The notes under the pieces were generated by a model. That model searched no databases. It worked only from the letters and a program-made list of their open reading frames with translations, and was not told where the DNA came from. From Flavobacterium piscisymbiosum (GTDB lineage: Bacteria; Bacteroidota; Bacteroidia; Flavobacteriales; Flavobacteriaceae), in contig NZ_JAJJMM010000001.1 of NCBI RefSeq assembly GCF_020905295.1, forward strand, positions 5,766,001 through 5,830,000: a DNA stretch of 64,000 nt, written 5' to 3'. Made by a program: the position numbers and the translations under genes. Shown here piece by piece: positions 1 through 21,300 of this stretch (the first letter of the stretch is position 1; the number at the start of each line of letters is the position of its first letter).

Positions 1-1
1 G

Positions 2-4600: not shown

Positions 4601-4873
4601 TCAAGTAACTCTGCTTATGTTGAAGACGGATCTTATTTAAAAGTAAAAAACATCATTTTAAGCTATAGAATTCCGGTGAAGAACGAGTTGGTCAACAAAT
4701 ACATTTCATCTGCAAAAGTATATGCTCAGGGCTCTAATTTATATACCTGGACAAAATACCGCGGTTCAGATCCTGAGATTTCCATCAACGGAAACTCCAT
4801 CAATTCAGGGAAAGATCAAAACGTGCCGGCCAATTCAGTAGTATTCACTTTAGGACTTAATGTAGGTTTCTAG
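1688..4873 (+). CDS. SusC/RagA family TonB-linked outer membrane protein 1
   Basis: This 1061-residue protein is a TonB-dependent transporter of the SusC class, which imports bulky substrates across the outer membrane with a SusD lid. Residues 1-22 form a signal peptide ending in NAQ. A carboxypeptidase-regulatory-like domain follows at about 34-110 (GTIVDQISNQPIIGASVNI). A TonB-box-like EIVVVGYG then leads into the plug domain, with DVLKDASAAAIYGSRAANG. The rest is a beta-barrel ending in Phe. The gene has its own promoter about 450 nt upstream and sits 30 nt before the SusD partner. Between a sulfatase and a sulfonate-monooxygenase-like gene it probably imports an organosulfur compound; that is inference from context. 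Confidence 0.95.
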   Translation: MKKNTKLILWISILFISIGINAQDTAPNIQSKLSGTIVDQISNQPIIGASVNIKGTTHGVETDIDGKFYFQTGQKFPYTLVINYIGYNSKEIIVDGSPVVIKLTEQVEKLDEIVVVGYGTSAKKTFTGATSKIDAQQIANRPAQSFDQLLGGQASGLNIVQPSGSLNSTPVIRIRGINSITSSLYPLVIVDGVTVFTGTAGGAIGNNPLSDINPNDIESIDVLKDASAAAIYGSRAANGVIVITTKKGKKGKVNVNYDVWVSWNKASNLPKLLNAEDYVSIKNEARTNAGLTPGFALGQNADGSTIGTNWYDVAYHTGVSQNHNLSFSGATNSTSYFISTNYSNQEGILRTNEFVRKGIRLNFEHKLNNSLTLGTNFSYNNSLNSGPNSGSSTPNSIGSSAGNAVNTQYIGLQPLGRLTYILPSNVSVYNPDGSYNINPSNGNIGYGANSPSLGVFNAYNLQTILDLDKNTSENNTFIGSIYAELEIIKNLKFKTVYGINNFVVENKEFRNPYSGDGFSTKGAATNSNTKYSRSNWTNTLTYSTVFDQKHNLKVLLGQEKNVREIDGWGAIKTGLTDPFFTSYQGGFTTIAPGPSVQTENVLLSYFSSIAYDYSKKYLLNLNFRRDGLSALASGNKWGNFGGASIGWNVSEEDFFKGSSIKNVLNAFKVRASYGIVGNSELNDYAALSQYSAGTYAGVPTLSFSQSGNPDLKWETSKKFDFGINFGLFDNRITVEADYYKNNINDLILNAPQSLSQGIPNNSIAANVGSLYNKGFELSINANIINDNDFQWNASFNLSTIKNKVTSLGGYGDIYPTALSTFGIQNITREGYSVGSIFAVPTNGVNPENGNRVYVNANNEEVQYNALTKAFTYLNGATAPAIDNYRDGRIQGPSLPTYYGGLNNNLSYKNFDLTIGLTFSGGNKLYNGTRSTLSDQRFFNNGTFIKDRWTTPGQVTDVPKLIYGDSFSGGFSSSNSAYVEDGSYLKVKNIILSYRIPVKNELVNKYISSAKVYAQGSNLYTWTKYRGSDPEISINGNSINSGKDQNVPANSVVFTLGLNVGF

Positions 4874-4903
4874 GCATTCATCTTAATTAAAAATAAAAAC
4901 ATC

Positions 4904-6367
4904 ATGATTTTCAATTATAAAAAAAGCATACAAAAAACCTTGATTATTACGCCATTTCTAGCCTTATTATTGACAGGATGTAGTGATAATGCTTTAGATA
5001 CTGTTCCTGAAACGAGCATTTCTACAGAAACTGCTTTCAGCACACCAGCCAAAATTTTAGGTCAGGTAAACGGACTTTACGGTCAGTTTAGCAATCCCTC
5101 TTTTTACGGTGGCCGATTCATTATTTTTAATGAACAAAGAGGCAATGAATTCAGCCAGAATGATGGTAACAATTCAACCGGAGCCAATGTCTGGAATCAA
5201 ACCATTACCTCATCAGGAGATTTTGTAAACTCGGTTTGGAGCGTTGCCTATACGACGATTAACTTTTCGAATATTCTGATCGACAATCTGGCAACTTCTA
5301 CTGTTGTTACTGAAGATTTACGTAAAAATTATATTGCCGAAGCCAAATTTGTAAGAGCTATTTCGTATCTAAGTTTGGTACAAACCTATGCAAAACCTTA
5401 TGCACAAAATAGTGCTGCATTGGCACTTCCGCTAAGATTAAAAGGAAACACATCAGGCGGACTCAATGACTTTGCTTTTAGTAGTGTTGCCGATGTTTAC
5501 ACTCAGATTTTAAAAGATCTTGACGAAGCCGAAGTTGATTTACCGGAGAGCTATTCCACCGGAATTCTTACGGCTTCAAGAGCGCACAAAGCTACTGCGA
5601 TTGCTCTAAAAACAAGAGTATATTTAAGCAAAGGCGATTATGCAAAAGTAATTTCAGAAGCCAGTAAACTGGTTCCTGCAACAGCTCCTTTCCAATACGT
5701 TTCCGGAAGTTTGACACATCGTTTAGAACCAAATGTTGCCACCGTTTTTGGAGGTTCTTATGTAGGGAACGAAGCGATATTTTCGATTCCGTTTACAACC
5801 GCGGCAGAAGCTCCGGGATTGCAAAGCGCACTTGGAGGAAACTACTTAACTCCGGTTATCTATTTTAATACCGCAGCAATAATTGCTGATCCTGTTTATG
5901 CTTCGGCAACTTCTGCAGATGCCAGAAAAGGTTTGGTTATCACCAATGCAACCGGACAAAAACTATTGAACAAATTCAAGAAAAATGGTGCGCCTTTTAC
6001 AGATTATGTTCCGGTGATTCGCTATGCCGAAGTTTTATTGAATTATGCCGAAGCCGCTGCTCAAAGTGACAATTTGCCTTTAGCACAATCTTTATTGGCA
6101 GCAGTAAGAAATCGTTCTGATGCCGCTTACGTTTTCACAACCGGAGTTGCTACAAAAGACGAATTGATTGCCACTATTTTAAACGAAAGAAGAATAGAAT
6201 TAGTAGGCGAAGGATTCCGTACACCGGATTTATTGCGACGAGTTCAGGCGCTTCCTGCCAAAACAGGAAATGCAGGCGCTGCACCTGAAGTTTTACCAAC
6301 AGCAGCCAATTATGTCTGGGCAATACCAAGTAACGAATTAGCTTATAACAAACTGGCTCCTAGATAG
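4904..6367 (+). CDS. SusD/RagB family lipoprotein 1
   Basis: This 487-residue surface lipoprotein captures substrate for the adjacent SusC. A signal peptide ends in LLLTGC, with Cys26 as the lipidated residue. The TPR-like SusD fold shows in AEAKFVRAISYLSLVQ and in the late NERRIELVGEGFR, followed by a short Pro/Trp segment (VWAIPSNEL), all usual for the family. At under 490 residues it is on the short side for SusD. It is co-directional with SusC, 30 nt downstream, so the two are almost certainly one transcript. The substrate cannot be read from sequence. Confidence 0.95.
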   Translation: MIFNYKKSIQKTLIITPFLALLLTGCSDNALDTVPETSISTETAFSTPAKILGQVNGLYGQFSNPSFYGGRFIIFNEQRGNEFSQNDGNNSTGANVWNQTITSSGDFVNSVWSVAYTTINFSNILIDNLATSTVVTEDLRKNYIAEAKFVRAISYLSLVQTYAKPYAQNSAALALPLRLKGNTSGGLNDFAFSSVADVYTQILKDLDEAEVDLPESYSTGILTASRAHKATAIALKTRVYLSKGDYAKVISEASKLVPATAPFQYVSGSLTHRLEPNVATVFGGSYVGNEAIFSIPFTTAAEAPGLQSALGGNYLTPVIYFNTAAIIADPVYASATSADARKGLVITNATGQKLLNKFKKNGAPFTDYVPVIRYAEVLLNYAEAAAQSDNLPLAQSLLAAVRNRSDAAYVFTTGVATKDELIATILNERRIELVGEGFRTPDLLRRVQALPAKTGNAGAAPEVLPTAANYVWAIPSNELAYNKLAPR

Positions 6368-6401: not shown

Positions 6402-6543
6402 TAAACACATAGAAACATAGCTTTTAAAAACTTTAAAAAAGGCGTTTCACTCGCATTAACAAACATAGCTATGTGTTAGAAACTAGTTTCTTTCAAATTT
6501 TCGTTTTTCTAAAAAGCCCAAAACCTATGTTTCTATGTGTTTA
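6402..6543. repeat. Dispersed element with 19-bp terminal inverted repeats, copy 1
   Basis: TAAACACATAGAAACATAG (6402-6420) is perfectly inverted at 6525-6543. The interior carries ACATAGCTATGTG. Related copies lie at 11121-11248 and, reversed and partial, at 12449-12524, all between genes of the sulfur block. The outer arm overlaps the first codons of a longer open frame for the next gene, which argues for the later start at 6609. Confidence 0.75.
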
Positions 6544-6608
6544 AAATAATTATCCTCAACAGTTCATTCACTATAGCATTTATAAAAAACAAAAAAAGAA
6601 ATAACGAA

Positions 6609-8309
6609 ATGAAAACTAATTTAAAATATCTGGCTGTACTCTTCGCTACGACGATTATCAGTGCACAGCAAAAAAACACCGCCGAGAAAATTTTCATCAA
6701 CGGTAATATCATTACGGTTGATGCCAAAAATAGTACTGCGCAAGCTGTTGCAGTAAGTAATGGCAAAATTCTGGCTGTTGGAACAAATAGTAAAATCGAA
6801 AAATTAAAAGACAAGAATACGATCGTTGTCGATCTGAAAGGCAAAACAGTAGTTCCCGGATTTATTGACGGTCACAGTCATTTTATGGGTTTATCAAGAT
6901 CGACTACAGTAAATGTAGGTTCGCCGCCAATGGGCGATGTTAAAAATATTGCCGATTTAGTAAGCCGTATTCAGGATTTTCAGAAGAAAAATAATGTCGC
7001 TCCAGGCGAATGGATCGATGCTTACGGATATGATCAGGATCAGCTTGAAGAAAAAAGACACCCGAATAAGGAAGATCTTGACGCTGCTTTTCCTAACAAT
7101 CCGGTAACGATTACAAATATTAACGGGCATATGTCGGTTTCGAATTCGTATGCTTTAAAACTTTCAGGAATTGATGCCACTACAGCAAATCCTCCAGGAG
7201 GCGCGATAGAAAGAAAAAAAGGTACCAACGAACCTACAGGATTATTACAGGAAAATGCAAGCCGATTATTGAAAAGGCCAGCCAAACCAGCTCCAACTTT
7301 AGACGAACAAATAAAAGGTTTAAAAGAGCAACAATTGTTTTATGCCAGCAATGGTATTACAACGGCTCAGGACGGATATTCAAGTTACGAATCAGTCGAA
7401 TTATTGCATAAAGCGGCAGAAAGAAACGAGTTGTTTATCGATATTGAAGCTTTGCCGGGTTATCCTACTTTAGAAAAAGTATTAAAAAATCCTGACTTTA
7501 AATTTGGCGTTCTAAAAAATCACTTAAAACTAGCCGGTACCAAAATGATTGCCGATGGTTCGCCTCAAGGTAAAACTGCTTTTTTTAGTAAATCATATTT
7601 GGTAGAAGTTCCGGGTTGTAACCACGATGTATGTACCGGTTTTGCCAATATTACACAGGAACAGTTTAATGATCTTGTTATTAAAGCATTCCAAAATAAT
7701 GTTCGTCCGTTTGTGCATTGCAACGGAGATGCAACTATCGATATGTATCTGAAAGCGATAGAAAATGCCAATAAAACTTTAAATACGAATAGTAACGACC
7801 GCAGACCAGTGACCATTCACTCTCAGTTTGTGCGACCAGATCAGCTTGATGATTATAAAAAACTGGGAATTATTGCGGCTTTCTTTAGCAATCACGCTTT
7901 CTTTTGGGGTGACGTACACGTTCGCAATTTAGGTGCAGATAGAGCTAATTTTTTAAGCCCATTAAAAACTGCCATCAAAAAAGGAGTTGTAGCAACAAAT
8001 CATACAGATTATCCGGTTACGCCACTAAACCAGTTGTTTTTATTGTGGACATCGGTAGAAAGAAAATCCCGTTCAGGTCAGGTTATTGGTCCGGATGAAA
8101 GACTTACTCCTATCGAAGGACTGCGTGCCATCACGATAAACGGTGCTTACGAATATTTCGAAGAAAATAGCAAAGGTTCTATCGAAACTGGAAAACTGGC
8201 CGATTTAGTAGTGCTTTCTGATGATTTAACAAAAATAGATCCTTCTAAAATAAAAGACATTACAGTTCTCGAAACGATAAAAGAAGGTAAAACAGTTTTT
8301 AAAAAATAA
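6609..8309 (+). CDS. Secreted amidohydrolase, YtcJ/NfdA-like
   Basis: This 566-residue metal-dependent amidohydrolase belongs to the amidohydrolase 3 group that includes N-substituted formamide deformylase. The start at 6609 places a signal peptide at residues 1-20 (MKTNLKYLAV to ISAQ); an upstream in-frame ATG at 6537 would start inside a repeat arm. The N-terminal beta-sandwich (IFINGNIITVD) precedes GFIDGHSHFMG, where His89 and His91 are expected metal ligands. Later motifs include HSQFVRPDQ and a C-terminal LADLVVLSDD strand. It sits between the SusD gene and the SsuD-like gene, so it may cleave an amide in the imported sulfur compound; the substrate is unknown. Confidence 0.85.
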   Translation: MKTNLKYLAVLFATTIISAQQKNTAEKIFINGNIITVDAKNSTAQAVAVSNGKILAVGTNSKIEKLKDKNTIVVDLKGKTVVPGFIDGHSHFMGLSRSTTVNVGSPPMGDVKNIADLVSRIQDFQKKNNVAPGEWIDAYGYDQDQLEEKRHPNKEDLDAAFPNNPVTITNINGHMSVSNSYALKLSGIDATTANPPGGAIERKKGTNEPTGLLQENASRLLKRPAKPAPTLDEQIKGLKEQQLFYASNGITTAQDGYSSYESVELLHKAAERNELFIDIEALPGYPTLEKVLKNPDFKFGVLKNHLKLAGTKMIADGSPQGKTAFFSKSYLVEVPGCNHDVCTGFANITQEQFNDLVIKAFQNNVRPFVHCNGDATIDMYLKAIENANKTLNTNSNDRRPVTIHSQFVRPDQLDDYKKLGIIAAFFSNHAFFWGDVHVRNLGADRANFLSPLKTAIKKGVVATNHTDYPVTPLNQLFLLWTSVERKSRSGQVIGPDERLTPIEGLRAITINGAYEYFEENSKGSIETGKLADLVVLSDDLTKIDPSKIKDITVLETIKEGKTVFKK

Positions 8310-8331: not shown

Positions 8332-8484
8332 ATGAATCAGATCAACCTAAATCCCGCACCTGTTGTATCAATGAGAATTAAAAATACTGAAATTTCCTGG
8401 TCGAGCGAAGCTGATAAAAACGCACAGGAAAACAAGAACAAAAAATTGAAAAAAAGCTTAAAAAAGAAAAGAAAAAATGATTGA
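8332..8484 (+). CDS. Small basic ORF (50 aa) overlapping the monooxygenase gene
   Basis: An ATG-to-TGA frame of 50 codons lies 22 nt after the amidohydrolase stop and overlaps the next gene by 8 nt (8477-8484), an arrangement typical of translational coupling. The peptide is Lys-rich at its C-terminus (KKLKKSLKKKRKND) and has no membrane segment. Its middle, TEISWSSEAD, resembles the start of the neighbouring monooxygenase, AEISWFNDII, and the DNA shares GAAATTTCCTGGT. It may be a real small gene, a leader peptide or the stump of a duplicated monooxygenase gene. I do not recognise a family. Confidence 0.45.
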   Translation: MNQINLNPAPVVSMRIKNTEISWSSEADKNAQENKNKKLKKSLKKKRKND

Positions 8485-9643
8485 AGGTAAAATTGAAACA
8501 GTAGCCATTAGAACCCCGGAAAGAGTCGCAGAAATTTCCTGGTTCAATGACATTATTGGTGGAGATACAGCATATTTAGGTGTTCTGGATAATGATCGCC
8601 GAAGCAGTTACGAGCATTGTCGTGACATTACATTAGAAGCAGAAAAACTAGGTTTCAGCAACATTTTATATCCATCAGCTTATACCGTAGGACAAGACGG
8701 ATTGGCTTTTGCAGCAAGCGTTGCACCGGAAACCAACAAGATTACATTTTTGCTCGCGGTTCGTACCGGAGAAGTGCATCCGCCTATGTTGGCGCGAGCT
8801 ATTTCTTCGTTAGATCACATGCTGAAAGGAAGATTGATCTTGAATATCATCAACTCTGATTTGCCGGGAACTCGTGAAGATCCTAATCTAAGATACCAAC
8901 GATGTTCTGAAGTTATTCAGATTTTACAACAAGGCTGGACACAAGACAGAATCTCGCACAAAGGAGAAATTTATCAGTTTGATTTGCCATCAGATCCTGT
9001 AAAATCCTATCAGCAAAACGGCGGTCCATTATTGTATTTTGGAGGAACTTCCCCTGGTTCCAGAGCTGTTTGCGCGAAACATTGCGACGTGTTTTTGACC
9101 TGGCCGGAATCTGAAGAATCAATGTACGCCACTCTGAAAGAAATGAGTGAACGCGCTGCCGCAGAAGGAAGAACCATCGATTTCGGGTTAAGAATTCACG
9201 TTATAGTTCGTGAAACGCAGGAAGAAGCAAGAGCTTACGCGAAAAAGCTAATTTCAAAATTTGATGAGAAAAGAGGTTTAGAAATCAGAAGCCGTGGCGA
9301 AGATTCACGTTCGTTAGGTGTTTTAAAACAAGATGAATTAAGAGAAACTTCGGATGAAGAGGGATATGTAGAAGATATCTTATGGACCGATATTGGTAAA
9401 GTTTTCTCCGGCTGCGGAAGTGGTTTGGTAGGAAGTGCCGATCAGATTATAGAAAAACTAAACCGCTACATGGATATGGGTTTCAGATCTTTTATTTTTT
9501 CCGGTTTTCCTTTGATTGAAGAAGCGAATTATTTTGCCAAATTGGTTTTGCCGCGTTTGCCGAATGCATCGTTGCCTCATTTACAAGGAAGAATTCCGCA
9601 AGAAACACCTACAACACCTTTGACCAATGCCGAATTGGTTTAG
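8477..9643 (+). CDS. LLM-class flavin-dependent monooxygenase, alkanesulfonate monooxygenase-like
   Basis: This 388-residue protein is a bacterial-luciferase-like TIM barrel related to SsuD/SfnG, FMNH2-dependent enzymes that release sulfite from sulfonates or sulfones. Supporting segments are the N-terminal EISWFNDIIGGDTAYLG, an AVRTGEVHPPMLARAISSLD strand-helix unit, RLILNIINSD, LLYFGGTSPGSR and the late FIFSGFPLIEEANYFAKLVLP. The length matches SsuD-type enzymes (about 380). No flavin reductase partner is visible nearby, so reduced flavin must come from elsewhere. The start overlaps the upstream 50-codon ORF by 8 nt. Sulfonate as substrate is inferred from family and from neighbouring cysteine-synthesis genes. 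Confidence 0.88.
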   Translation: MIEGKIETVAIRTPERVAEISWFNDIIGGDTAYLGVLDNDRRSSYEHCRDITLEAEKLGFSNILYPSAYTVGQDGLAFAASVAPETNKITFLLAVRTGEVHPPMLARAISSLDHMLKGRLILNIINSDLPGTREDPNLRYQRCSEVIQILQQGWTQDRISHKGEIYQFDLPSDPVKSYQQNGGPLLYFGGTSPGSRAVCAKHCDVFLTWPESEESMYATLKEMSERAAAEGRTIDFGLRIHVIVRETQEEARAYAKKLISKFDEKRGLEIRSRGEDSRSLGVLKQDELRETSDEEGYVEDILWTDIGKVFSGCGSGLVGSADQIIEKLNRYMDMGFRSFIFSGFPLIEEANYFAKLVLPRLPNASLPHLQGRIPQETPTTPLTNAELV

Positions 9644-9664: not shown

Positions 9665-11098
9665 ATGTCAGAAATAGAAAAAAAACAAGAATACAAAAGA
9701 GAACTCGGTCTTGCCGATGCAGCCTTATTGGTGGCCAGCGGAATGATTGGTTCGGGAATTTTTATTGTGAGTGCCGATGTTACGCGTAATGTGGGATCAG
9801 CGGGCTGGTTGATTTTAGTTTGGTTAATTGGCGGATTCATGACATTGATTGCTGCTGTGAGTTATGGCGAATTGAGTGGCATGTTTCCTAAATCAGGAGG
9901 TCAGTATATTTATCTAAAAGAAGCCTACAATCCGCTTGTGGCCTTTGTATACGGATGGAGTTTGTTTACCGTAATTCAAACCGGAACTATTGCTGCGGTT
10001 TGTGTATCGTTCTTTAAATTTCTGGCGTATTTTTTTCCGCTTTTCAGCGAAGATTTGGTCGCTTTCAGGATTGGAGATTCTTTCACCATTTCGCCCGCAC
10101 AACTCTCCTCTATTGTCTTGTTGTTCGTTTTAACGTACATCAATACCAAAGGCGTAAAACTGGGAAAAGTGATTCAGAAGTTTTTCACGGGAACTAAATT
10201 GATAAGCTTACTAATTCTGATTGTCTTCGGGTTTATCTTTTTCAAACCCGAAGTGTGGCAGGCAAACTGGACGAATCCGTTTCATTTACAAAAGCTAAAT
10301 CCGGACGGTTCGTTTTTACAATACACTAATACACCCGCTTTTTGGGGCGCAATTGCTTCGGCATTAGTCGGAACGGTAATTAGCTATGATGCCTGGAATA
10401 ATGTGACGTTTGTTTCGGATGAAATAAAAAATCCAAAACGAAATATTGGTTTGAGTTTGCTTTTAGGAACTGCCGTTGTTACGATTATTTACGTTTCGGT
10501 AAATGTAATGTTTACAGCCGTTTTGCCTGTTGAAGCTATTGGAACTCCGGAAAAAGATCGCGTTGGTATTGCTGCAGCACAGGCTATTTTTGGCTCAAGC
10601 GGAACTTCGATTATTGCATTAATGATTTTGATTGCTTCTTTTGGTTGTGCCAACGGAATGATTTTATCGGGCGCAAGAGTCTACCAAAGTATGGCAAAAG
10701 ATGGTTTGTTTTTTAAGAAAACAGCGATTTTAAACAAACATTCGGTTCCTGCAAATGCGCTTTGGATTCAGTTTTTTATGGCCGTGATTTTAAGTTTAAG
10801 CGGTCGTTACGGAAATTTATTAGACATGATTTCTTTTGTAGTGGTATTATTTTACGTGATTACCATTGCCGGGATTTTTGTTTTAAGAATTAAAAAACCG
10901 CAACACGAAAGACCGTACAGAGCTTTTGGATATCCGTTTTTACCTATTATTTACATTATTTTAGGATCAGCCTTTTGTGTTTTATTAATCATTTATAAAC
11001 CTACTTATACCTGGCCGGGATTAATCATCGCCGGTATCGGAATACCTGTTTTTTATATTAGAGAGAAATTTTCAAAACGAAAAATTACAGACATTTAA
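9665..11098 (+). CDS. APC superfamily amino acid permease
   Basis: This 477-residue polytopic membrane protein has about 12 hydrophobic segments. The first transmembrane region carries the family signature VASGMIGSGIFIV, where the unwound GSG binds the substrate backbone in APC/LAT permeases. TYINTKGVKLGK and KNPKRNIGLSL are further family landmarks. It lies 21 nt after the monooxygenase gene in the same direction, so it is likely in one operon with it. Context suggests transport of an amino acid or a related sulfur compound across the inner membrane, but the specificity cannot be seen. Confidence 0.88.
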   Translation: MSEIEKKQEYKRELGLADAALLVASGMIGSGIFIVSADVTRNVGSAGWLILVWLIGGFMTLIAAVSYGELSGMFPKSGGQYIYLKEAYNPLVAFVYGWSLFTVIQTGTIAAVCVSFFKFLAYFFPLFSEDLVAFRIGDSFTISPAQLSSIVLLFVLTYINTKGVKLGKVIQKFFTGTKLISLLILIVFGFIFFKPEVWQANWTNPFHLQKLNPDGSFLQYTNTPAFWGAIASALVGTVISYDAWNNVTFVSDEIKNPKRNIGLSLLLGTAVVTIIYVSVNVMFTAVLPVEAIGTPEKDRVGIAAAQAIFGSSGTSIIALMILIASFGCANGMILSGARVYQSMAKDGLFFKKTAILNKHSVPANALWIQFFMAVILSLSGRYGNLLDMISFVVVLFYVITIAGIFVLRIKKPQHERPYRAFGYPFLPIIYIILGSAFCVLLIIYKPTYTWPGLIIAGIGIPVFYIREKFSKRKITDI

Positions 11099-11357: not shown

Positions 11358-12182
11358 ATGAATTCATTTTATCAAGAAATAGCAAACAACCATCAGAGTT
11401 TATTGATCCTTCCTCAAAAAAAGGTAATTCATCAGTTTATTGAGGATTTATTCTCTGTTTTATTTTCGAATACTTCAAAGCGTTTTGGAGATTTATCTAT
11501 TATCAAAAACAAATTTGAAGTTTTAGAAAAGCAATTTAATGAAATCGTAATTGACTATTCATCCAAAAAAGAGGACAGTTTCGAGCAAACTCAACTTTTT
11601 TTCGAAGCATTGCCTAATCTGTACAAAAAAACATTAAATGACGCCGATACTATTTTTAGAAAAGATCCCGCCGCAAAATCCATTGAAGAAGTTCTGTACG
11701 CTTATCCCGGATTTTTTGCGATTGCCGTTTACCGGTTTTCACATCAAATCTGGAATCAGGATTTAAAACTTCTCGCACGAACCTTTTCTGAATATGCGCA
11801 CATCAAAACCAGTATCGAAATTCATCCAGGCGCGCAAATAGGCAATGATTTCGCCATAGATCACGGAACCGGAATTGTAATAGGCGAAACCACGATTATT
11901 GGCGATAATGTGCAAATCTATCAAGGTGTTACATTGGGCGCTTTGAGTGTAAAAAAGGAAGAAGCTTTTATAAAAAGACATCCTACGATTGAAAACAATG
12001 TAATTATTTATTCGAATAGTACGATTCTGGGCGGGCAAACTGTTGTGGGAAGGGATTCTATTATTGGAGGAAATGTCTGGCTAACTTATACGGTTCCGTC
12101 AAATTCTGTGGTGTATCATAAAAATGAGATTAAAGTGAAGGATAATAATCCGTTTCCGGAACCTATTTTTTATTCGATTTAA
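11358..12182 (+). CDS. epsC: Serine O-acetyltransferase (EpsC/CysE type)
   Basis: This 274-residue enzyme makes O-acetyl-L-serine from serine and acetyl-CoA, the first step of cysteine synthesis. An alpha-helical N-terminal half (to about residue 150) precedes a left-handed beta-helix of hexapeptide repeats from about residue 153 (IEIHPGAQIGND). DHGTGIVIGET contains the expected catalytic His169. The C-terminus ends FPEPIFYSI, with a terminal Ile as in serine acetyltransferases that bind cysteine synthase. It is followed 370 nt downstream by a cysteine synthase gene. EpsC-like transferases are known neighbours of family 2A encapsulins. Confidence 0.92.
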   Translation: MNSFYQEIANNHQSLLILPQKKVIHQFIEDLFSVLFSNTSKRFGDLSIIKNKFEVLEKQFNEIVIDYSSKKEDSFEQTQLFFEALPNLYKKTLNDADTIFRKDPAAKSIEEVLYAYPGFFAIAVYRFSHQIWNQDLKLLARTFSEYAHIKTSIEIHPGAQIGNDFAIDHGTGIVIGETTIIGDNVQIYQGVTLGALSVKKEEAFIKRHPTIENNVIIYSNSTILGGQTVVGRDSIIGGNVWLTYTVPSNSVVYHKNEIKVKDNNPFPEPIFYSI

Positions 12183-12551: not shown

Positions 12552-13472
12552 ATGAAATATCAAAATATACTAGAAACCATAGGCAACACCCCCCACGTAA
12601 AACTCAACAAGATTTTTCCGGAGCATCAGGTTTGGATTAAGATCGAAAAGTCGAATCCGGGGGCGAGTATCAAGGACCGGATTGCATTGGCAATGATTGA
12701 AGACGCCGAACAAAAAGGACTTTTAAATCCTGATTCGATTATTATAGAACCTACTTCGGGAAATACCGGCATTGGGCTTTCATTGGTTGCTGCAGTAAAA
12801 GGATACAAAGTGATTCTGGTAATGCCGGAATCGATGAGTATCGAAAGACGAAAAATCATGAATGCTTATGGTGCTGAATTTGTTTTAACTCCAAGAGAAA
12901 AAGGAACTTTGGGCGCAGTAGAAAAAGCAAAAGAATTAGCCTTATCAACTCCTAATTCATTTTTGCCTTTTCAGTTTACGAATCCGGCAAATGTTGAGAT
13001 TCATGAGAAAACAACGGCTCAGGAAATTCTGCAGGATTTTCCGGAAGGTATCGATTACCTCATCACGGGAGTTGGAACGGGCGGACATATTACGGGAGTT
13101 TCTAAAATTTTGAAACAACATTTTCCTAATCTTAAAACCTACGCGGTCGAACCTGCCTTATCACCGGTTTTAAGCGGAGGATCTCCTGCCCCGCATCCTA
13201 TTCAGGGTATTGGCGCGGGGTTTATTCCGGAAGTTTTTAATCGGGATTATGTCGATTTGGTCATTCCGGTTGAAAAAGAAGATGCTTTTTATTTTGCTAA
13301 AAGGTTACCAAAAGAAGAAGGAATTTTTGCAGGAATTTCGACGGGAGCTTCGTTGGCGGCGATTTCAAAACAAATCAATAAAATCCCTAAAGATGCTGTT
13401 GTTTTGACTTTTAATTATGATACCGGAGAACGATATCTTTCGGTTGACGAATTATTCGATCCGCTTTCATAA
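12552..13472 (+). CDS. cysM: Cysteine synthase (PLP-dependent, CysK/CysM family)
   Basis: This 306-residue enzyme condenses O-acetylserine with sulfide (or thiosulfate in CysM types) to form cysteine. PGASIKDR places the PLP-binding Lys at residue 41. TSGNTG (68-73) binds the substrate carboxylate, [10 protein letters not shown] is the phosphate-cradling glycine loop, and the C-terminal GISTGA is also typical. It is downstream of the serine acetyltransferase gene and 171 nt upstream of the encapsulin shell gene. Together these genes would supply cysteine, the substrate of the encapsulated desulfurase. CysK versus CysM cannot be decided from sequence alone. Confidence 0.92.
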
Positions 13473-13643: not shown

Positions 13644-14564
13644 ATGGCTGAACAAAAACAACAACAAACAGCATTAGGAGATGTTGCAGCAAGACAATTA
13701 GCAATTGCAACTCGTACGGTTCCTCAAATTGGGACAATTTCACCACGTTGGCTGACGCATCTTTTGCATTGGACACCAGTAGAATCAGGCGTATTTCGTT
13801 TGAATAAAGTAAAAGACGGAAGCCATATCGAAGTCGATTGTTCTGCACGTGACGAAAGAGTTTTACCCAATACTTTCGTAGATTATATCGATAATCCAAG
13901 AGAATACAATCTGGCAGCAGTACAAACGATTGTAGATGTACACACAAGGGTTTCTGACTTGTACAGCAAACCATACAATCAAATTTCTGAACAATTACGT
14001 TTGGCTATTGAAACGATCAAAGAACGTCAGGAAAGCGAATTAATCAACAATAAAGATTATGGATTGTTGAGTAATGTTGCAAAATCTCAAATCATTAAAA
14101 CCAGAACCGGTGCGCCAACTCCTGACGATTTAGACGAATTGTTGACAAAAGTTTGGAAAGAACCTGGTTTTTTCTTGTTGCATCCTTTAGCAATTGCTGC
14201 TTTTGGCCGCGAATGTACACGTCGCGGAGTTCCACCTCCTACAACGTCTTTATTTGGATCTCAGTTTTTGACATGGAGAGGGATTCCGCTTATTCCATCG
14301 GATAAATTACCTATCGTAAACGGAAAATCGAAAATTATTTTATTACGTACGGGCGAAAGCCGTCAGGGTGTTATCGGATTAATTCAACCGGGATTACAAG
14401 GCGAGCAATCACCAGGATTATCGGTTCGTTTTATGGGAATCAACGAAAAAGCAATTGCCTCTTATTTGGTATCTCTTTATTGCTCATTGGCAATTTTAGT
14501 CGATGATGCTATTGCAGTTCTTGAAGATGTAGAAATAGGAAAGTACCATGAGTATAAATACTAA
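13644..14564 (+). CDS. Family 2A encapsulin nanocompartment shell protein (SrpI-like)
   Basis: This 306-residue protein has the HK97 phage-capsid fold and should self-assemble into a cytosolic protein shell. Recognisable segments are the N-terminal arm with GDVAARQLAIATRTVPQIG and ISPRWLTHLLHWTPVESGVFR, the central FGRECTRRGVPPPTT and LFGSQFLTWRGIPLIPSDK, and the C-terminal GLSVRFMGINEKAIASYLVSLY. It has no cyclic-nucleotide-binding insert, so it fits subfamily 2A rather than 2B. Its stop overlaps the cargo desulfurase gene by 17 nt, meaning the two are co-translated. Shells of this type are linked to sulfur limitation and to cysteine desulfurase cargo in cyanobacteria and Acinetobacter. No perfect promoter is seen; TAAATTTA at 13550-13557 is the nearest -7-like element. 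Confidence 0.93.
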   Translation: MAEQKQQQTALGDVAARQLAIATRTVPQIGTISPRWLTHLLHWTPVESGVFRLNKVKDGSHIEVDCSARDERVLPNTFVDYIDNPREYNLAAVQTIVDVHTRVSDLYSKPYNQISEQLRLAIETIKERQESELINNKDYGLLSNVAKSQIIKTRTGAPTPDDLDELLTKVWKEPGFFLLHPLAIAAFGRECTRRGVPPPTTSLFGSQFLTWRGIPLIPSDKLPIVNGKSKIILLRTGESRQGVIGLIQPGLQGEQSPGLSVRFMGINEKAIASYLVSLYCSLAILVDDAIAVLEDVEIGKYHEYKY

Positions 14565-16485
14565 CCACGACGGTTTACCCAACATTGAGGATTTGCAGTT
14601 TTTGGCGAACGAATTGTTCAAGTCATTACCTAACGAGTTTCCTAAGGAAATTTCGTTAAGTCCTGATCGAAATGAACATCCGCGTGCAACAAAAATTGCA
14701 GAAACTTTGTTGAATACCGGGAATTTAAGCGGTAATAGTGCAACAACTCTTCCGTTACAGAATGTAGCAACACCACCTTCTGGTGCGCCTGCATTTAGTG
14801 GCTTTGGAGCTTCGCCCACTGTTGCCAATTATGGTTCAGGAGCTTCGGCTTTATATCCTAATGCCGGAGCCGGATTTGATCCTCAAAGTGGGGTTTCTCC
14901 ATCAGGAATTCCGCACGGAAATAATGTCAATGTCAACAATCCGCAAACGGGTTTTCATGATGTCAATTTCAAGAATGGCGGAACGGCACAATCGAATGAA
15001 GAAAACCTTTTTTCGCAATTGCTTTTAAACCATAATTATCTGCCTTTTCAAACCGAAAGTTCTTCTTTTGAAACGGAATTAAAAGAGGCGTTGTCTTTTG
15101 TTGATACCAACTTTACAAAGCGCGTTGATTTTCCGTTAAACGGAAATGAAATACCAAATTCGTATTATTTTTTAGAACAAAATCCGTTTGCTTTCGATCA
15201 GAGAAATTCAAATTTAATTGTTGGAAATACTTTCGAAAAACCAGATTTTGGGAATGTCTCAGGTTCTCGTTTTGATGCTAATCTGATCAAAAAAGATTTT
15301 CCTATTCTAAGAGAAACTGTAAACGGAAAACCTTTAGTCTGGTTTGATAATGCTGCTACTACCCAAAAACCACAATCGGTTATTGATCGTATTGCGTATT
15401 TCTACGAACACGAGAATTCGAATATCCATCGTGCAGCACATGAACTTGCCGCTCGCGCCTCTGATGCTTATGAAGCCGCTCGTGAAAAAGTAAAAACGTT
15501 TTTGAATGCAAGTTCTGTAAACGAAATTGTATTTGTTCGCGGTGCTACAGAAGGTATCAATCTGGTGGCTCAAAGTTGGGGCGATCATAATCTGGTTGCC
15601 GGAGACGAAATCATTGTGAGCAATCTGGAACATCATGCGAATATTGTTCCGTGGAAAAGATTGGCGGATAAAAAAGGCTTGAAATTAAGAGTAATTCCCG
15701 TAGACGATGACGGACAAATTTTACTGGATGAATATTCTAAACTACTGAATTCTAAAACCCGTTTGGTTGCTTTTACACAAGTTTCAAACGCACTTGGAAC
15801 TGTAACTCCTGCCAAAGAAATTGTAAAAATGGCACACGCTGTTGGAGCAAAAGTTTTAATTGACGGAGCACAATCAGTTTCGCATATGAAAGTGGATGTT
15901 CAGGATCTAAATCCGGATTGGCTGGTATTTTCCGGACATAAACTTTTTGGTCCAACCGGAATTGGCGCTTTATACGGAAAAGAAGAGTTACTAAACGAAA
16001 TGGAACCCTACCAAGCTGGCGGAAACATGATTCAGGATGTGACTTTTGAGGAAATAAAATACCACAAAGCACCGAATCGTTTCGAAGCCGGAACCGGAAA
16101 TATCGCTGATGCCATTGGTCTTGGCGCTGCAATAGATTATGTTACTAAACTTGGTATTGACGCTATCGGACAATATGAACATCAATTACTGGATTATGCC
16201 ACAAAACTATTGAAGGAAATTCCGGGTGTAAGACTGATAGGAACGGCGAAAAATAAAGCAAGTGTACTTTCTTTTAATTTACAAGGTTATACCAACGATC
16301 AGGTTGGTCAGGCTTTAAACAGAGAAGGTGTTGCAGTAAGAACCGGACATCATTGCGCGCAGCCTATTTTGCGAAGAATGGGAGTTGAAACTACTGTTCG
16401 GCCGTCTTTGGCTTTTTATAATACTACAGAAGATGTTGATACATTCATCAAAACATTGTGGGAACTTAAAAAAGTTAGATTTTAA
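14548..16485 (+). CDS. Encapsulated cysteine desulfurase with N-terminal cargo-loading region
   Basis: This 645-residue protein is a SufS-type class V PLP enzyme that converts cysteine to alanine and protein-bound persulfide. About 240 extra residues precede the catalytic domain. They comprise a helical start (LPNIEDLQFLANELFKSLP), a Gly/Ser/Pro/Asn-rich linker (about 55-150) and a second conserved-looking block (about 150-235). Such extensions direct family 2A cargo to the inside of the shell. The catalytic domain begins near RFDANLIKKDFPIL (241). Lys465 in SGHKLFGPTG binds PLP and Cys603 in GHHCAQP is the persulfide-forming residue; both are present. The start codon lies inside the shell gene (17-nt overlap). 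A terminator follows 79 nt after the stop. Confidence 0.95.
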   Translation: MSINTNHDGLPNIEDLQFLANELFKSLPNEFPKEISLSPDRNEHPRATKIAETLLNTGNLSGNSATTLPLQNVATPPSGAPAFSGFGASPTVANYGSGASALYPNAGAGFDPQSGVSPSGIPHGNNVNVNNPQTGFHDVNFKNGGTAQSNEENLFSQLLLNHNYLPFQTESSSFETELKEALSFVDTNFTKRVDFPLNGNEIPNSYYFLEQNPFAFDQRNSNLIVGNTFEKPDFGNVSGSRFDANLIKKDFPILRETVNGKPLVWFDNAATTQKPQSVIDRIAYFYEHENSNIHRAAHELAARASDAYEAAREKVKTFLNASSVNEIVFVRGATEGINLVAQSWGDHNLVAGDEIIVSNLEHHANIVPWKRLADKKGLKLRVIPVDDDGQILLDEYSKLLNSKTRLVAFTQVSNALGTVTPAKEIVKMAHAVGAKVLIDGAQSVSHMKVDVQDLNPDWLVFSGHKLFGPTGIGALYGKEELLNEMEPYQAGGNMIQDVTFEEIKYHKAPNRFEAGTGNIADAIGLGAAIDYVTKLGIDAIGQYEHQLLDYATKLLKEIPGVRLIGTAKNKASVLSFNLQGYTNDQVGQALNREGVAVRTGHHCAQPILRRMGVETTVRPSLAFYNTTEDVDTFIKTLWELKKVRF

Positions 16486-16595: not shown

Positions 16596-16886
16596 GATTA
16601 AAATCAAATGGACCTCTTTTTAAACAATTATCGAATAAAACAAAAAATAATTAAAATCGAATCAACACTATAGTTAAAACGCTATCATAAATAAAGACAA
16701 AAAACCAAATAGATTGCATAATAAACAATGCAAGCATATTTTTTTTACAAAAAAACGATAAATCTGAGTTCAAATGTTACAAATAACACAAAAGCACATA
16801 AAACAGTTATACTTAACATAAAAAAAACGAGGAACATTAACATATATTTAAGACATTTGAGAGAACTAATCCAAACATTAAACAAA
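16596..16886 (+). other. Upstream region of SusC 2
   Basis: Between the terminator and the SusC start there are about 290 AT-rich bases without a gene. ACACTATAGTTAAAACGCTATC (partly palindromic, near 16665-16686) is the only distinctive element. It shares CTATAG with the site over the SusC 1 transcription start. A long frame is open from 16728, but its first 53 codons have no signal peptide and are very AT-rich, so it is read as leader. Confidence 0.4.
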
Positions 16887-19800
16887 ATGAAAATTAATTT
16901 AAAGCATTTTTTGTGGCTTTTGTTGGTATTATTTGTGCAATTAGCCAATGCACAAGGAGGATCTATTTCTGGTAAAGTTACAGATGGAAAGCGAGTACCT
17001 ATCCCGGGAGTAAATATTGTCCTAAAAGGGACAAAAATCAGTACTCAGACTGATTTTGACGGAAATTTTAAAATAGCTGCCAGCAAAGGCGATATTTTAA
17101 TTGTGAGTTATGTAAGTTTTGCAACAGTTCAGGTTCCTGCATCAAATTTAATGACCATTGAATTAGTTGAAACTCAAAACGAACTTGAAGCTGTTCTCGT
17201 AGTAGGTTATGGAACACAAACTAAAAGAAATTCAACTGATAATATAGCCCGTGTAACTGCAAAAGATATTCAGCAAATACCGGTTTCAAATCTGCAAAAT
17301 GCTTTAGTTGGTAAACTGGCAGGTGTACAAGTAACGCAAACAAATGGTAAAGTCGAAGGAGGAATTAATATTAGAGTTCGTGGTGCTGCAAGTATTAGCG
17401 CAGGAAGTCAACCATTGTACGTACTTGATGGCATTCCATTAATCACTGATAATGAATCAAGTAACGGAGCTCCAACCAACCCATTACTGACTTTAAGTAC
17501 AAGCGAAATTGAATCTATCGATGTTTTGAAAGATGCTTCTTCTGCAGCTATTTATGGTGCGCGTGGTGCAAACGGAGTAGTTATCATTACCACTAAAAAA
17601 GGAAAAGACGGAAAAGGTACTTTCTCAATCAATTTCTCACAAGGTGTTAGCGAAGCAACTCATAAAAAGAAATGGTTAAATGCTACACAATACGTACAAT
17701 TACTACAGGAAGCCGGACGAAATGTTGACGATCTGGAATCTGTAGAAGATGAACTAGAGTATTTAGCGCAAGGAACAGACTGGAGAAATGGTGAAGTAAA
17801 TACAGACTGGCAAAAAGAAGCTTTAAAAACCGGTTACACTACTGATGCTGATTTTTCGGTTTCAGGAGGTGACGACAAAACAAAATATTTTTTCTCCGGT
17901 TCTTATAATAAAACAATTGGTATTGTAGACAGCAATAGTCTGGAAAGATTAACGGCAAGAAGTAACTTATCACATAAAGTTTCTAGTCGTTTTACCGCAG
18001 GAATGAATATTGGTTTTTCAAGATCATTAATAGACAGGGTTCAGGACGATAATGAATTTACAACGCCATTACAATCTGTTGCCCAGGCTCCTATTTCGCA
18101 AGCCAGATTAGCAGACGGAACAGCAAATCCTAATACAGAATATGCCAATTATCTTTTAGCCAAAGACAATAGCTTCTGGAAAACCATCATGAGAAGAGTG
18201 ACCGGAAAAGTATTTGGGGAATTAAAAATCTTAAACTCTCTGAAATTCAATTCTGATTTTTCATACGATCTTTTAAGTCAGACAGAAGATTACTGGCAAG
18301 GAAAAAATGCTCCTTTTATGGCTACTGACGGAGCAGTGTTTGCAACCTCTGTAAATACTGAAAGTTATGTTTTTAGTAACTATTTTACTTTTGATAAAAC
18401 ATTTGCAGAAAAACATACTATAAATGCGGTTGCCGGTATGGAATTTAATAAATACAACCGAAGATACCAGGATGTACAAAGTATTTACTTTCCTAACGAT
18501 AATTTCCAGACCGTTGATGGAGGAGCAGAAGTAAACGAAGGTCACGGAAGTCAGACTGATTATGCCTTTGTTTCTCAATTTGGAAGATTAAATTACAGCT
18601 ATGATGGTAAATATCTTTTTAAAGCAAGTGTACGTCGTGACGGTTCATCCCGCTTTGGAAAAAATAACAGATTTGGAATTTTCCCTGCTTTTTCTGCTGG
18701 TTGGGTAATCTCTCAGGAAGAATTTTTAAAAGACAATCCTGTTTTAAGTTATTTAAAAATAAAAGGAAGTTGGGGAAAACTAGGAAATGCTGAAATTGGA
18801 AACTTTGCTTCACGACAATTGTACCAGACAAATCCGTATAATCTAAAATCAGGATTAACATTTTACCAACCAGGAAACGACGATCTTACCTGGGAAAAAT
18901 CAACTCAGACGGATGTTGGTTTCGAAATTGGATTCTTAAACAAAATTACTTTTGAAGCTGATTATTATCAAAAAGATACTGACGGATTGCTTTTTGATGT
19001 ACCGCTTCCTAAAAGTGCCGGCGCTGGTACCAGCGGAACTATCAGCAAGAATATCGGAAAGATTAGAAGCAATGGTTTCGAGTTTACTTTAAACACTAAA
19101 AACATTGAAACAGAAGAATTCAAATGGAATACGAGTTTTAATATTACGACCAATCAATCTAAAGTAAAATCACTTCCAAACGACAATACAGATATTATTT
19201 CAGATTTTACAATCAACAGAGTTGGCGAAAACATTTCTTCTTTTTATTTAGTGGAATACGCAGGAGTTGATTCACAAAACGGGGATGCTCTTTTTGTAAA
19301 AAACACTAAAAACGCTGACGGAAGTATTGATAAAAGCACTACCAATGATTACAGTGAAGCCAAAAGAGTTATTTCAGGAAATCCGTTTCCTACTTTAATG
19401 TCGGGTTTAACCAATACAATCCTGTACAAAGGCGTTGATTTTACTTTTACTTTTCAGGGAGAATGGGGTGCCAGTATTTATAATTCAGCGGGATTATACC
19501 AATCAACAGCAGCTGATTATTTTGATAATCAAACCGCTGATCAGTTAAACCGTTGGCAAAAACCGGGAGATATTACCAATGTACCTCAGGCGAGATTTGG
19601 AGGTTCAAACGGAACACAGAATTCTACACGTTACTTAGAAAAATCAGATTTTATTCGTTTAAGAAATGTAACAGTAGGATATTCTTTGCCTAAAAAAACT
19701 GTAAGTGATATGGGAATGAGCAATTTGAGAGTTTATGTTACTGCCGTGAACCTGCTTACTTTTACCAATTATAACGGAACTGACCCTGAAGCAAGAAGAG

Positions 19801-19895
19801 ATGACACTAGCAGAACAAGCCCAAGAGCAGGAGAAGATTTTTACTCAGCTCCGCCAGCGAGAACAATTGCAATGGGAGTAAATATTAATTTTTAA
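16887..19895 (+). CDS. SusC/RagA family TonB-linked outer membrane protein 2
   Basis: This 1002-residue TonB-dependent transporter has the start set at 16887 because a clean signal peptide (MKINLKHFLWLLLVLF to ANAQ) begins there. Next come a carboxypeptidase-regulatory-like domain (GKVTDGKRVPIPGVNIVLKG), a TonB-box-like VLVVGYGT, and a plug domain with DVLKDASSAAIYGARGANG. The barrel ends in Phe (MGVNINF). It is paired with the next SusD gene 10 nt downstream. It sits behind the encapsulin operon terminator, so it is probably transcribed separately; whether it shares a sulfur-responsive regulator is inference. Confidence 0.95.
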   Translation: MKINLKHFLWLLLVLFVQLANAQGGSISGKVTDGKRVPIPGVNIVLKGTKISTQTDFDGNFKIAASKGDILIVSYVSFATVQVPASNLMTIELVETQNELEAVLVVGYGTQTKRNSTDNIARVTAKDIQQIPVSNLQNALVGKLAGVQVTQTNGKVEGGINIRVRGAASISAGSQPLYVLDGIPLITDNESSNGAPTNPLLTLSTSEIESIDVLKDASSAAIYGARGANGVVIITTKKGKDGKGTFSINFSQGVSEATHKKKWLNATQYVQLLQEAGRNVDDLESVEDELEYLAQGTDWRNGEVNTDWQKEALKTGYTTDADFSVSGGDDKTKYFFSGSYNKTIGIVDSNSLERLTARSNLSHKVSSRFTAGMNIGFSRSLIDRVQDDNEFTTPLQSVAQAPISQARLADGTANPNTEYANYLLAKDNSFWKTIMRRVTGKVFGELKILNSLKFNSDFSYDLLSQTEDYWQGKNAPFMATDGAVFATSVNTESYVFSNYFTFDKTFAEKHTINAVAGMEFNKYNRRYQDVQSIYFPNDNFQTVDGGAEVNEGHGSQTDYAFVSQFGRLNYSYDGKYLFKASVRRDGSSRFGKNNRFGIFPAFSAGWVISQEEFLKDNPVLSYLKIKGSWGKLGNAEIGNFASRQLYQTNPYNLKSGLTFYQPGNDDLTWEKSTQTDVGFEIGFLNKITFEADYYQKDTDGLLFDVPLPKSAGAGTSGTISKNIGKIRSNGFEFTLNTKNIETEEFKWNTSFNITTNQSKVKSLPNDNTDIISDFTINRVGENISSFYLVEYAGVDSQNGDALFVKNTKNADGSIDKSTTNDYSEAKRVISGNPFPTLMSGLTNTILYKGVDFTFTFQGEWGASIYNSAGLYQSTAADYFDNQTADQLNRWQKPGDITNVPQARFGGSNGTQNSTRYLEKSDFIRLRNVTVGYSLPKKTVSDMGMSNLRVYVTAVNLLTFTNYNGTDPEARRDDTSRTSPRAGEDFYSAPPARTIAMGVNINF

Positions 19896-19905
19896 AACGA
19901 ACAAA

Positions 19906-21300
19906 ATGAAAGCAAATAAAATAATCTTATATATATTTTTCGTAGCCCTTTTTGCGAGTTGCGAAAATGAATTGGATATAGACCCAAAACAAACCGAAGA
20001 TGCCTCTATTACACTGGGTACAGAAGGTGGTGTCACCAATATACTGACCGGAACTTATGCTCTGGCAGCCAATGGAAATGCTTATGGAGGAAGAATATTA
20101 CTTTACGCCGATTTATTAGGAGTTAGTGGTTCACTAAATACAACTGATCTTAGATGGCGTGGAACTTTCGGAGAGTTGAGACAGATGTACATCAAAACAA
20201 TGTTATCAGATAACGTAATTATTGAAGGAACTTATTCGAGATGTTACGAGATAATCAATGCAGCAAATACGGTGATCGAAAACGTCGATAAAGTAAAAGA
20301 TCCGGCCAAACAAACCCGAATGATTGGTGAGGCCAGTTTTTTAAGATCTCTTGCCTATTTTGACCTTGTTCGCTTTTTTGCAAAACCTTATGTGAGTGGT
20401 CAGGCCAATACACAATTAGGAGTTGTAATAAGACCCAACGCGATTTATAATTTTAATGTAGATCTTTCTAAAGAAAGAAGTACGGTCGATGAAGTTTACA
20501 AAGTAATCATCGATGGTTTAAATCTTGCCTACACTAATCTTCCTGCTGACAATACTTTTTATGCTGATAAATATGCAGCAAAAGCATTATTGGCCAGAGT
20601 TTATCTGCAACAAGGTAATTATGCTGAAGCAAGAGATGCAGCCAATGATGTGATCGAAAATAGCGGACACGGATTGTCTCAAACTTATGCCGCAGCCTTT
20701 AATCACGATACAGATCAGACCGAAGATGTATTTGCTATACAAATCACAAAACAAACCGGTATAAATGACGCCAATACCTTTTATCAGTCTGAAGATAATG
20801 GAGGCCGTGGGGGGGATTTTTCTATTAGAGATCATTATTTAGAAAAATTTAGCAGCCCGGATGACAGAGCGACTTTTAATTATGAGAATGAAGCAAACGG
20901 CAGAATATTGACTTCTAAATTTACAGATCAATTTTCTGATGTGACTATTATTCGATTGGCCGAGATGTATTTGATAAGAGCAGAAGCAAATTTCAGACAA
21001 GGAACAGCTGTTGGAAATACACCATTAGACGATATCAATATAATAAGATCAAGAGCAAATGCAGACGATTTATCAGCTGTTACAATAGATGATATTTTAC
21101 TGGAACGTGAATTAGAATTAGGAATGGAAGGTTTCTTAATTCACGATATCAAAAGAACAAAACGCTCTATTGATATTAGCGAGAATGGCGACGGTTCAAG
21201 CCTGTTGCTTTATGATGCCAATAATCTCGTATTCCCTATTCCGTTGAGCGAAACTGATGCCAACAAAAAAATCACTCAGAATCCGGGATATAATAACTAA
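19906..21300 (+). CDS. SusD/RagB family lipoprotein 2
   Basis: This 464-residue surface lipoprotein is the partner of SusC 2. A short signal peptide ends FASC, making Cys19 the lipid attachment site. AEASFLRSLAYFDLVRFFAKPY resembles SusD 1 and the family's TPR helices. The C-terminal part has ERELELGMEGFLIHDIKR and ends NPGYNN, typical of SusD. A strong terminator follows 22 nt after the stop. The ligand is unknown. Confidence 0.95.
   Translation: MKANKIILYIFFVALFASCENELDIDPKQTEDASITLGTEGGVTNILTGTYALAANGNAYGGRILLYADLLGVSGSLNTTDLRWRGTFGELRQMYIKTMLSDNVIIEGTYSRCYEIINAANTVIENVDKVKDPAKQTRMIGEASFLRSLAYFDLVRFFAKPYVSGQANTQLGVVIRPNAIYNFNVDLSKERSTVDEVYKVIIDGLNLAYTNLPADNTFYADKYAAKALLARVYLQQGNYAEARDAANDVIENSGHGLSQTYAAAFNHDTDQTEDVFAIQITKQTGINDANTFYQSEDNGGRGGDFSIRDHYLEKFSSPDDRATFNYENEANGRILTSKFTDQFSDVTIIRLAEMYLIRAEANFRQGTAVGNTPLDDINIIRSRANADDLSAVTIDDILLERELELGMEGFLIHDIKRTKRSIDISENGDGSSLLLYDANNLVFPIPLSETDANKKITQNPGYNN

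Follow-up and report, generated by a model that had tools for sequence, protein, structure and literature searches.

The shell and cargo genes of the encapsulin

The stretch analysed here (hereafter the window) comprises 64,000 nucleotides of Flavobacterium piscisymbiosum DNA (assembly GCF_020905295.1, contig NZ_JAJJMM010000001.1, positions 5,766,001 to 5,830,000 of the forward strand); all of the window features described below lie on its + strand. It carries two overlapping genes that encode the shell of a family 2A encapsulin (SrpI-like, 306 residues, 13644..14564) and its cargo cysteine desulfurase (CyD, 645 residues, 14548..16485). This is a complete and ordinary encapsulin of its family. 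Its novelty is limited to its setting, an organosulfur-scavenging island of which the pair would be an optional module in this genus.

The shell open reading frame (ORF) matches the NCBIfam family 2A model NF041162 with 526.7 bits (cut-off 380) and Pfam PF19307 with 354.2 bits. The family 2B model also exceeds its cut-off (423.4 bits, cut-off 400), below the 2A score, and its best stretch on the shell covers model positions 210-449 only. The cyclic-nucleotide-binding domain that marks family 2B is absent from the 306 residues, for which PF19307 is the sole Pfam match. The shell shares 220 of 300 aligned residues (73%) with SrpI of Synechococcus elongatus PCC 7942 (PDB 6x8m). Three of the pore residues named for SrpI are conserved as R193, G195 and P197, and Arg304 of SrpI is replaced by Lys305. 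As an HK97 fold is reported for SrpI (PMC8049743), the shell would be expected at such identity to adopt this fold and could assemble into closed icosahedral particles. It is 86-99% identical to 20 relatives, shells of the closest related Flavobacterium loci reach 100% identity, and the best 120 of 8000 scored proteins all reach 86% identity or more. The NCBI name of the family 2A shell is already borne by Flavobacterium proteins.

The cargo matches NF041166 with 898.4 bits (cut-off 800) over residues 5-640, its N-terminal extension included, and its SufS domain matches TIGR01979 (sufS) with 562.2 bits (cut-off 475.1). According to the family model and to an alignment with PDB desulfurases, this domain begins at about residue 241-247. 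The same alignment places the lysine that binds pyridoxal phosphate at Lys465 (codon 15940..15942), within SGHK; the catalytic Cys603 (codon 16354..16356), the only cysteine of this cargo, lies within HHC. An earlier reading of the DNA made without database searches (hereafter the sequence-only reading) had announced a 240-residue extension, both catalytic residues intact and a 17-nucleotide overlap of the two frames (14548..14564), and each of these was right, the overlap to the base. Its assignment to a family 2A shell with a desulfurase cargo is borne out by the curated models, of which 2A outscores 2B on the shell in the profile search that it had suggested, by the identity to the solved shell and by counterparts of both targeting motifs.

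The pair was compared with 80 related loci, the best of 437 confirmed relatives and hence leaning to the closest ones; 59 are labelled Flavobacterium, Flavobacteriaceae or [Flexibacter] (hereafter the Flavobacteriaceae loci) and 21 belong to other Bacteroidota. Shell and cargo matches adjoin in all 80. When each cargo is started at the in-frame ATG closest to the shell stop, a choice that yields similar cargo N-termini, the overlap is 17 nucleotides in 66, 20 in 12 and 14 in one of 79 loci. The eightieth, excluded from the cargo counts, is the sole locus with a cargo frame broken in the assembly (L117:10908-11987; 20-nucleotide overlap), by real decay or by an assembly error. Because both ORFs pass family-specific NCBIfam cut-offs and overlap by 14, 17 or 20 nucleotides in 79/80 loci, the ORF pair is not due to chance. 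In one genome (G297, C1:1754912-1756933), the cargo match contains one internal TAG.

The extension of the cargo (residues 1-240, 14548..15267) is poorly conserved and is the putative loading domain. In S. elongatus, it is necessary and sufficient for loading, and CyD was found to be about sevenfold more active when encapsulated (PMC8049743). The motifs published for such extensions are LARLANEFFS and AASPYYFLDG (PMC8049743). Counterparts of both motifs, matched by eye, are found here: LQFLANELFK (residues 16-25, 14593..14622) and YYFLEQ (residues 206-211, 15163..15180). The pattern [LIF]AN.[LFY]F of the first motif is present in 79/79 related cargos. YYFL occurs in 67 of these 79 and in none of five annotated plasmid cargos, that of S. 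elongatus included, so this exact form was rejected as a universal second motif. Between the two motifs, the alignment reveals two conserved islands, P.T.F.D.N (residues 132-140, 14941..14967), whose five named residues are each kept in 95% or more of the 80 rows, and YLPF (residues 164-167, 15037..15048), with two positions reaching at least 95% and the other two at least 80%. Neither was met in the consulted portion of PMC8049743.

The extension is also free of cysteine, here as in all 79 cargos from genome contigs. Whole cargos have one cysteine in 50, two in 28 and three in one of these 79, and SufS proteins have 3-5 in 30/30 cases (one per genome, from 30 of the 33 encapsulin-bearing genomes described below). 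Cysteine depletion was rejected as a family-wide mark: the alphaproteobacterial plasmid cargos of Azospirillum and Methylosinus contain five and four cysteines, respectively, and the annotated Variovorax cargo has one in its extension.

The sulfur island around the pair

The sequence-only reading had placed the pair in a sulfur-scavenging block with SusCD genes. Such a block does exist, but it is larger than described and lies mostly outside of the window, and a sulfur substrate of the SusCD pairs within the window is only putative. The island extends about 19 kb to the left of the window (L119 and L120, that is C1:5733001-5769000 of the same genome). This left part encodes SusCD, PF00884 (SULF_A) sulfatases, an alkylsulfatase-type enzyme (PF14863, PF14864), a rhodanese-thioredoxin, a YeiH-type putative sulfate exporter, DUF1254 and DUF1214 proteins and a fatty-acid-hydroxylase homologue (the last two named from their copies in the related locus L042 and from matches in islands that lack the shell). 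The YeiH-type protein scores 95.9 bits against TIGR00698, below the cut-off of 232.6, and its L042 copy also matches PF03601. There are four SULF_A sulfatases in all, and the last one enters the window, where profile matches locate its 3' end (1..727; L120:13081-14727), about 13 kb upstream of the shell.

Nearer to the pair, the window encodes an LLM flavin-dependent monooxygenase related to SsuD and SfnG (8477..9643; PF00296). It scores 239.2 bits against TIGR03565, under the cut-off of 518.2, and is the only match to this model in the genome at E 0.001; it may have an SsuD-type LLM monooxygenase activity and is not classed as SsuD. Upstream of the shell come a serine O-acetyltransferase of the EpsC type (CysE, 11358..12182), with 150.4 bits against NF041874 (cut-off 150) and 169.5 bits against TIGR01172, under its cut-off of 210.65, and the cysteine synthase CysK (12552..13472; TIGR01139, 403.4 bits, cut-off 350.95). 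Behind the cargo lies a second SusC/SusD pair (16728..21300, genes 16728-19895 and 19906-21300), recognised from Pfam and ORF clusters.

Neighbours of the pair in the 59 Flavobacteriaceae loci were counted by ORF clustering in flanks of at most 10 kb; nine loci have shorter flanks and the counts are lower bounds. SULF_A is found in 44 loci, yeiH in 40, the rhodanese-thioredoxin in 36, cysE in 36, cysK in 34, the second SusCD pair behind the cargo in 21 and the SsuD-type block in 9. Within such flanks, SULF_A and the SsuD block never occur in one locus and 53/59 loci carry one or the other; the genome under study has both SULF_A and the SsuD-type gene. In 12 genomes chosen from the 33 that bear the shell, sulfatases were found within 30 kb upstream of it in 12/12 cases, with 39 of 140 matches located there against 0.8 expected if they were evenly spread.

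Presence or absence of the pair in Flavobacterium

Of 249 genomes of the genus, 33 have the shell family, and exactly these 33 also have the cargo family. A family-wide sample (149 genomes, 148 genera) contains two genomes with the shell, both of the genus Flavobacterium. All 33 genomes carry elsewhere a separate full-length SufS-family match over the cut-off (C1:1438300-1439493 in the genome under study), and CyD is therefore an extra desulfurase. An orthologue of yeiH (E up to 1e-100) is present in 47/249 genomes, namely 32 of the 33 that bear the shell and 15 of the 216 that do not. The exception among the shell-bearing genomes, G209, is an assembly of 180 contigs. In another genome (G230, C35:73785-75035), the yeiH match has one internal TAA.

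Among the 15 yeiH regions of shell-less genomes, 12 contain the island at the same place, beside the genes of ornithine aminotransferase (ornAT) and lrp or the second SusCD pair, without shell and cargo; two have yeiH without the island and one is at a contig edge. Two of these 12 islands are without SULF_A too. Another of the 12 observations concerns L126, which retains cysK at the site of the pair and suggests that shell and cargo were lost from a more complete locus. When the shell-less locus L133 is compared with L042, the similarity extends to the base that follows the SULF_A stop codon and is taken up again in the final bases of the cargo gene; in other such comparisons, it restarts no more than some tens of bases from the end of the cargo. 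From these break points, the missing piece is a cassette that consists of the shell and cargo genes and their upstream region.

Distances between CyD proteins correlate with those of SULF_A (0.58, 44 loci), YeiH (0.59, 40 loci), CysK (0.58, 34 loci) and the second SusC (0.86, 21 loci). Correlations with the chromosomal neighbours are 0.395 for ornAT (51 loci), above shuffles, and 0.12 for lrp (46 loci), within shuffles. These values, obtained over differing sets of loci, are only a pointer that the cassette may travel with the island.

Loci outside Flavobacteriaceae and known systems

With profiles built from Flavobacteriaceae genes, the 21 loci from other Bacteroidota show cysE in 10, cysK in 3, sulfatase in 2 and yeiH in 3 (one weak and partial), and neither the rhodanese-thioredoxin nor the SsuD-type enzyme in any. 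Five of the 32 plasmid records with a match were also examined. Plasmid pANL of S. elongatus has the order cysK-epsC-srpI-cyd-rhodanese. The Variovorax plasmid carries genes for TauD, a CysB-type regulator, an LLM oxidoreductase, a rhodanese and EpsC, then shell and cargo; on the Azospirillum one, the pair is flanked by genes for a sulfonate-binding protein and TauD at one end and by cysE at the other; the Aliarcobacter one shows rhodanese, shell, cargo, cysE and cysK. The sulfatase island is thus particular to Flavobacteriaceae, cysE beside the pair is common and organosulfur genes recur in single cases. Other gene clusters near the pair in the 21 loci are PhyH in six (L105, L110, L114, L115, L116 and L118), fatty-acid hydroxylase in four (L098, L099, L105 and L110) and DUF6134 in three (L101, L114 and L116).

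The system closest to hand, SrpI-CyD of S. elongatus, resembles the one described here in its shell, including the arginine, glycine and proline of the pore, and in its SufS-type cargo, whose N-terminal extension bears related motifs (PMC8049743). The genes of CysK and serine O-acetyltransferase lie directly upstream on pANL and both lie upstream here. Shell and cargo are separated by an annotated gap of 234 nucleotides in S. elongatus, whereas they overlap by 17 nucleotides here. In addition, the S. elongatus system is plasmid-borne with a rhodanese gene directly downstream, whereas the present one is chromosomal and sits in an organosulfur island. Shells from three Acinetobacter records show 71.9% identity. 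The family 2A encapsulin of Acinetobacter baumannii is reportedly a store of elemental sulfur.

By mentioning cyanobacteria and Acinetobacter as the known sources of such systems, the sequence-only reading overstated the novelty of this one. Family 2A desulfurase systems are reported in 12-13 phyla (PMC8346489, PMC8049743), and a 2021 survey counted 1281 such operons, 111 of them in Bacteroidetes, and found that enrichment among their accessory genes was strongest for serine O-acetyltransferases and rhodaneses (PMC8346489). The locus shares with these Bacteroidetes operons its phylum, the gene pair and the serine O-acetyltransferase accessory gene. Unlike what is found here, the account of Bacteroidetes operons in the consulted portion of that survey includes no mention of sulfatases, of YeiH or of a cassette that is either present or absent. 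No published link between encapsulins and sulfatases or organosulfur genes in Flavobacterium was found in a search of titles and abstract openings, which left most subscription literature outside.

Proposed role and alternative explanations

The most probable explanation of these data is that the locus encodes a family 2A encapsulin loaded with CyD that would bank, as a reserve, the sulfur of cysteine derived from the island. The following course of events can be proposed. The overlapping frames would couple translation, so that shell and cargo are made together. The HK97-type shell, so named by homology, would take in the SufS-type CyD through its N-terminal extension, whose short motifs would bind the shell interior as in S. 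elongatus. The island would convert organosulfur compounds to sulfite or sulfate, which enzymes encoded elsewhere in the genome would reduce to sulfide, and the CysE and CysK encoded next door would turn this sulfide into cysteine. After passage through the shell pore, cysteine would be split by CyD into alanine and a persulfide on Cys603, and the sulfur would remain enclosed by the shell, in sulfane or elemental form, as a reserve for later use, as published homologues lead one to expect. The module would thus allow the cell to save up sulfur set free by the island in bursts, and the separate SufS would be in charge of the housekeeping supply of sulfur to Fe-S clusters.

This storage reading agrees with the description of cysteine desulfurase encapsulins as being involved in sulfur storage (PMC12407261). 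In its favour are the family scores of both proteins, the residues shared with SrpI and its pore, the counterparts of both loading motifs, the overlapping frames, the occurrence of shell and cargo in the same genomes, the separate SufS, the sulfatases upstream of the shell, the distribution of yeiH and the shell-less islands at the same place. The cysK-epsC-srpI-cyd-rhodanese order of S. elongatus and the occurrence of sulfonate-type genes close to the pair on the Variovorax and Azospirillum plasmids were also counted for it. A more specific version, tentative and rather doubtful as a whole, is that of a plug-in sulfur battery: a cassette that is cleanly acquired or lost at a fixed island, behind its last sulfatase gene, and that would store the sulfur of sulfate esters and sulfonates. 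If true, the cassette would convert a scavenging island into one that scavenges and banks. More generally, the setting suggests a testable reason for an encapsulated desulfurase, namely the banking of sulfur from irregular organic sources. Since genomes of a single genus have the island at one site, some with the cassette and others without it, they offer a natural control set, and the physiological role of the family thereby becomes directly testable in laboratory strains of Flavobacterium that are easy to work with.

Several results weigh against storage of island-derived sulfur. As sulfatases neighbour the pair in just 2/21 loci outside Flavobacteriaceae, their association with it was rejected as a family-wide rule and taken as a feature of the genus, and on the Methylosinus plasmid no sulfur gene is annotated within 8 kb of the pair in an incomplete gene table. 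The co-occurrence of shell and yeiH (Fisher p ~1e-27) ignores shared ancestry within one genus, and yeiH lies less than 20 kb from the shell in 29 of 32 genomes and on another contig in three (G224, G298 and G334). The distances of CysE correlate with those of CyD at 0.22 only (36 loci), within the shuffled range, which speaks against cysE travelling with the pair. CysD (C1:1848004-1848876) and the best sulfite-reductase-type (NIR_SIR) matches (C1:1850722-1851921) are encoded outside of the island, near C1:1.85 Mb, with a weaker NIR_SIR match at C1:5712584-5713000. The rhodanese-thioredoxin of the island, whose L042 copy has a hydrophobic N-terminus resembling a leader, may be exported and would then not be a direct sulfur acceptor. 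Lastly, the AlphaFold model of the shell, a test that the sequence-only reading had suggested, reached a predicted local distance difference test (pLDDT) of no more than 45 and a predicted template modelling (pTM) score of 0.45, from an input of 21 closely related rows (the window and 20 loci, none below 86% identity), so that the fold is assigned by homology.

The main rival explanation is delivery: the shell would hide the persulfide of CyD and hand it to a dedicated acceptor, such as a docking rhodanese, for cofactor or tRNA thiolation. Such a role was proposed along with the enrichment of rhodaneses among the neighbours (PMC8346489), and rhodanese genes are located directly behind cyd in S. 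elongatus, directly before the shell in Aliarcobacter and three genes before it in Variovorax, to which the rhodanese-thioredoxin in the flanks of 36/59 Flavobacteriaceae loci can be added. However, the pair has no rhodanese gene as a direct neighbour in the window, and the island protein has the leader-like N-terminus mentioned above; delivery seems unlikely here. Still less likely is a safety valve that clears surplus cysteine or sulfide when the island outpaces the need for growth and that leaves no usable store. The cysE and cysK genes in the flanks of 36 and 34 of the 59 loci do make local surges of cysteine plausible, but the S. elongatus system is induced by sulfate starvation, not by surplus (PMC8049743).

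The link with the island might also be an inherited linkage within one genus, devoid of functional meaning, with an encapsulin that acts as its counterparts in other phyla do, which would be compatible with storage itself. The rarity of sulfatase neighbours outside Flavobacteriaceae and the correlation of CyD distances with those of the chromosomal neighbour ornAT are in keeping with this view. However, these distances track the island genes more closely than ornAT or lrp, over locus sets that differ, among related genomes that share the island site some carry the pair and others do not, and sulfonate-type genes occur near it in Variovorax and Azospirillum; linkage alone is possible, if somewhat unlikely. 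Finally, encapsulins have an HK97-fold ancestry, which is all that would speak for the remnant of a phage capsid or a pseudogene. This explanation was rejected as having next to no probability: both ORFs are intact and pass curated cut-offs, the shell is highly similar to its 20 relatives, the neighbours' Pfam and NCBIfam matches include no phage family (a phage-specific library was not used), and the pairing with CyD in 33/33 genomes contradicts it. Storage of island-derived sulfur by an encapsulated CyD remains the preferred reading.

Other genes and minor observations

The window begins, behind the sulfatase end, with a first SusC/SusD pair (1688..6367, genes 1688-4873 and 4904-6367). Its SusC was identified by Pfam, and its SusD was named, not from a Pfam scan of its own, but from its place behind SusC and from the second SusD, which has matches of 26-28% identity at these places in related loci. 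An amidohydrolase of the Amidohydro_3 type (6537..8309; PF07969) precedes the LLM monooxygenase, and an APC-family amino acid permease (9665..11098; PF13520) follows it. The intergenic gaps are 369 nucleotides between cysE and cysK, 171 between cysK and the shell gene and 242 between the cargo gene and the second susC. Tight coupling is therefore limited to shell and cargo, and a single operon from the first to the second SusCD pair is not supported by these gap sizes. In an alignment of the 160 nucleotides upstream of the shell from the window and 59 loci, scattered conserved positions were seen and no shared regulatory site. In one encapsulin-bearing genome (G127, C27:31302-32010), the rhodanese-thioredoxin match is in two pieces with an internal stop. 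Beyond the island lies a gene related to those of molybdopterin nitrate reductases (L119:6368-8584).

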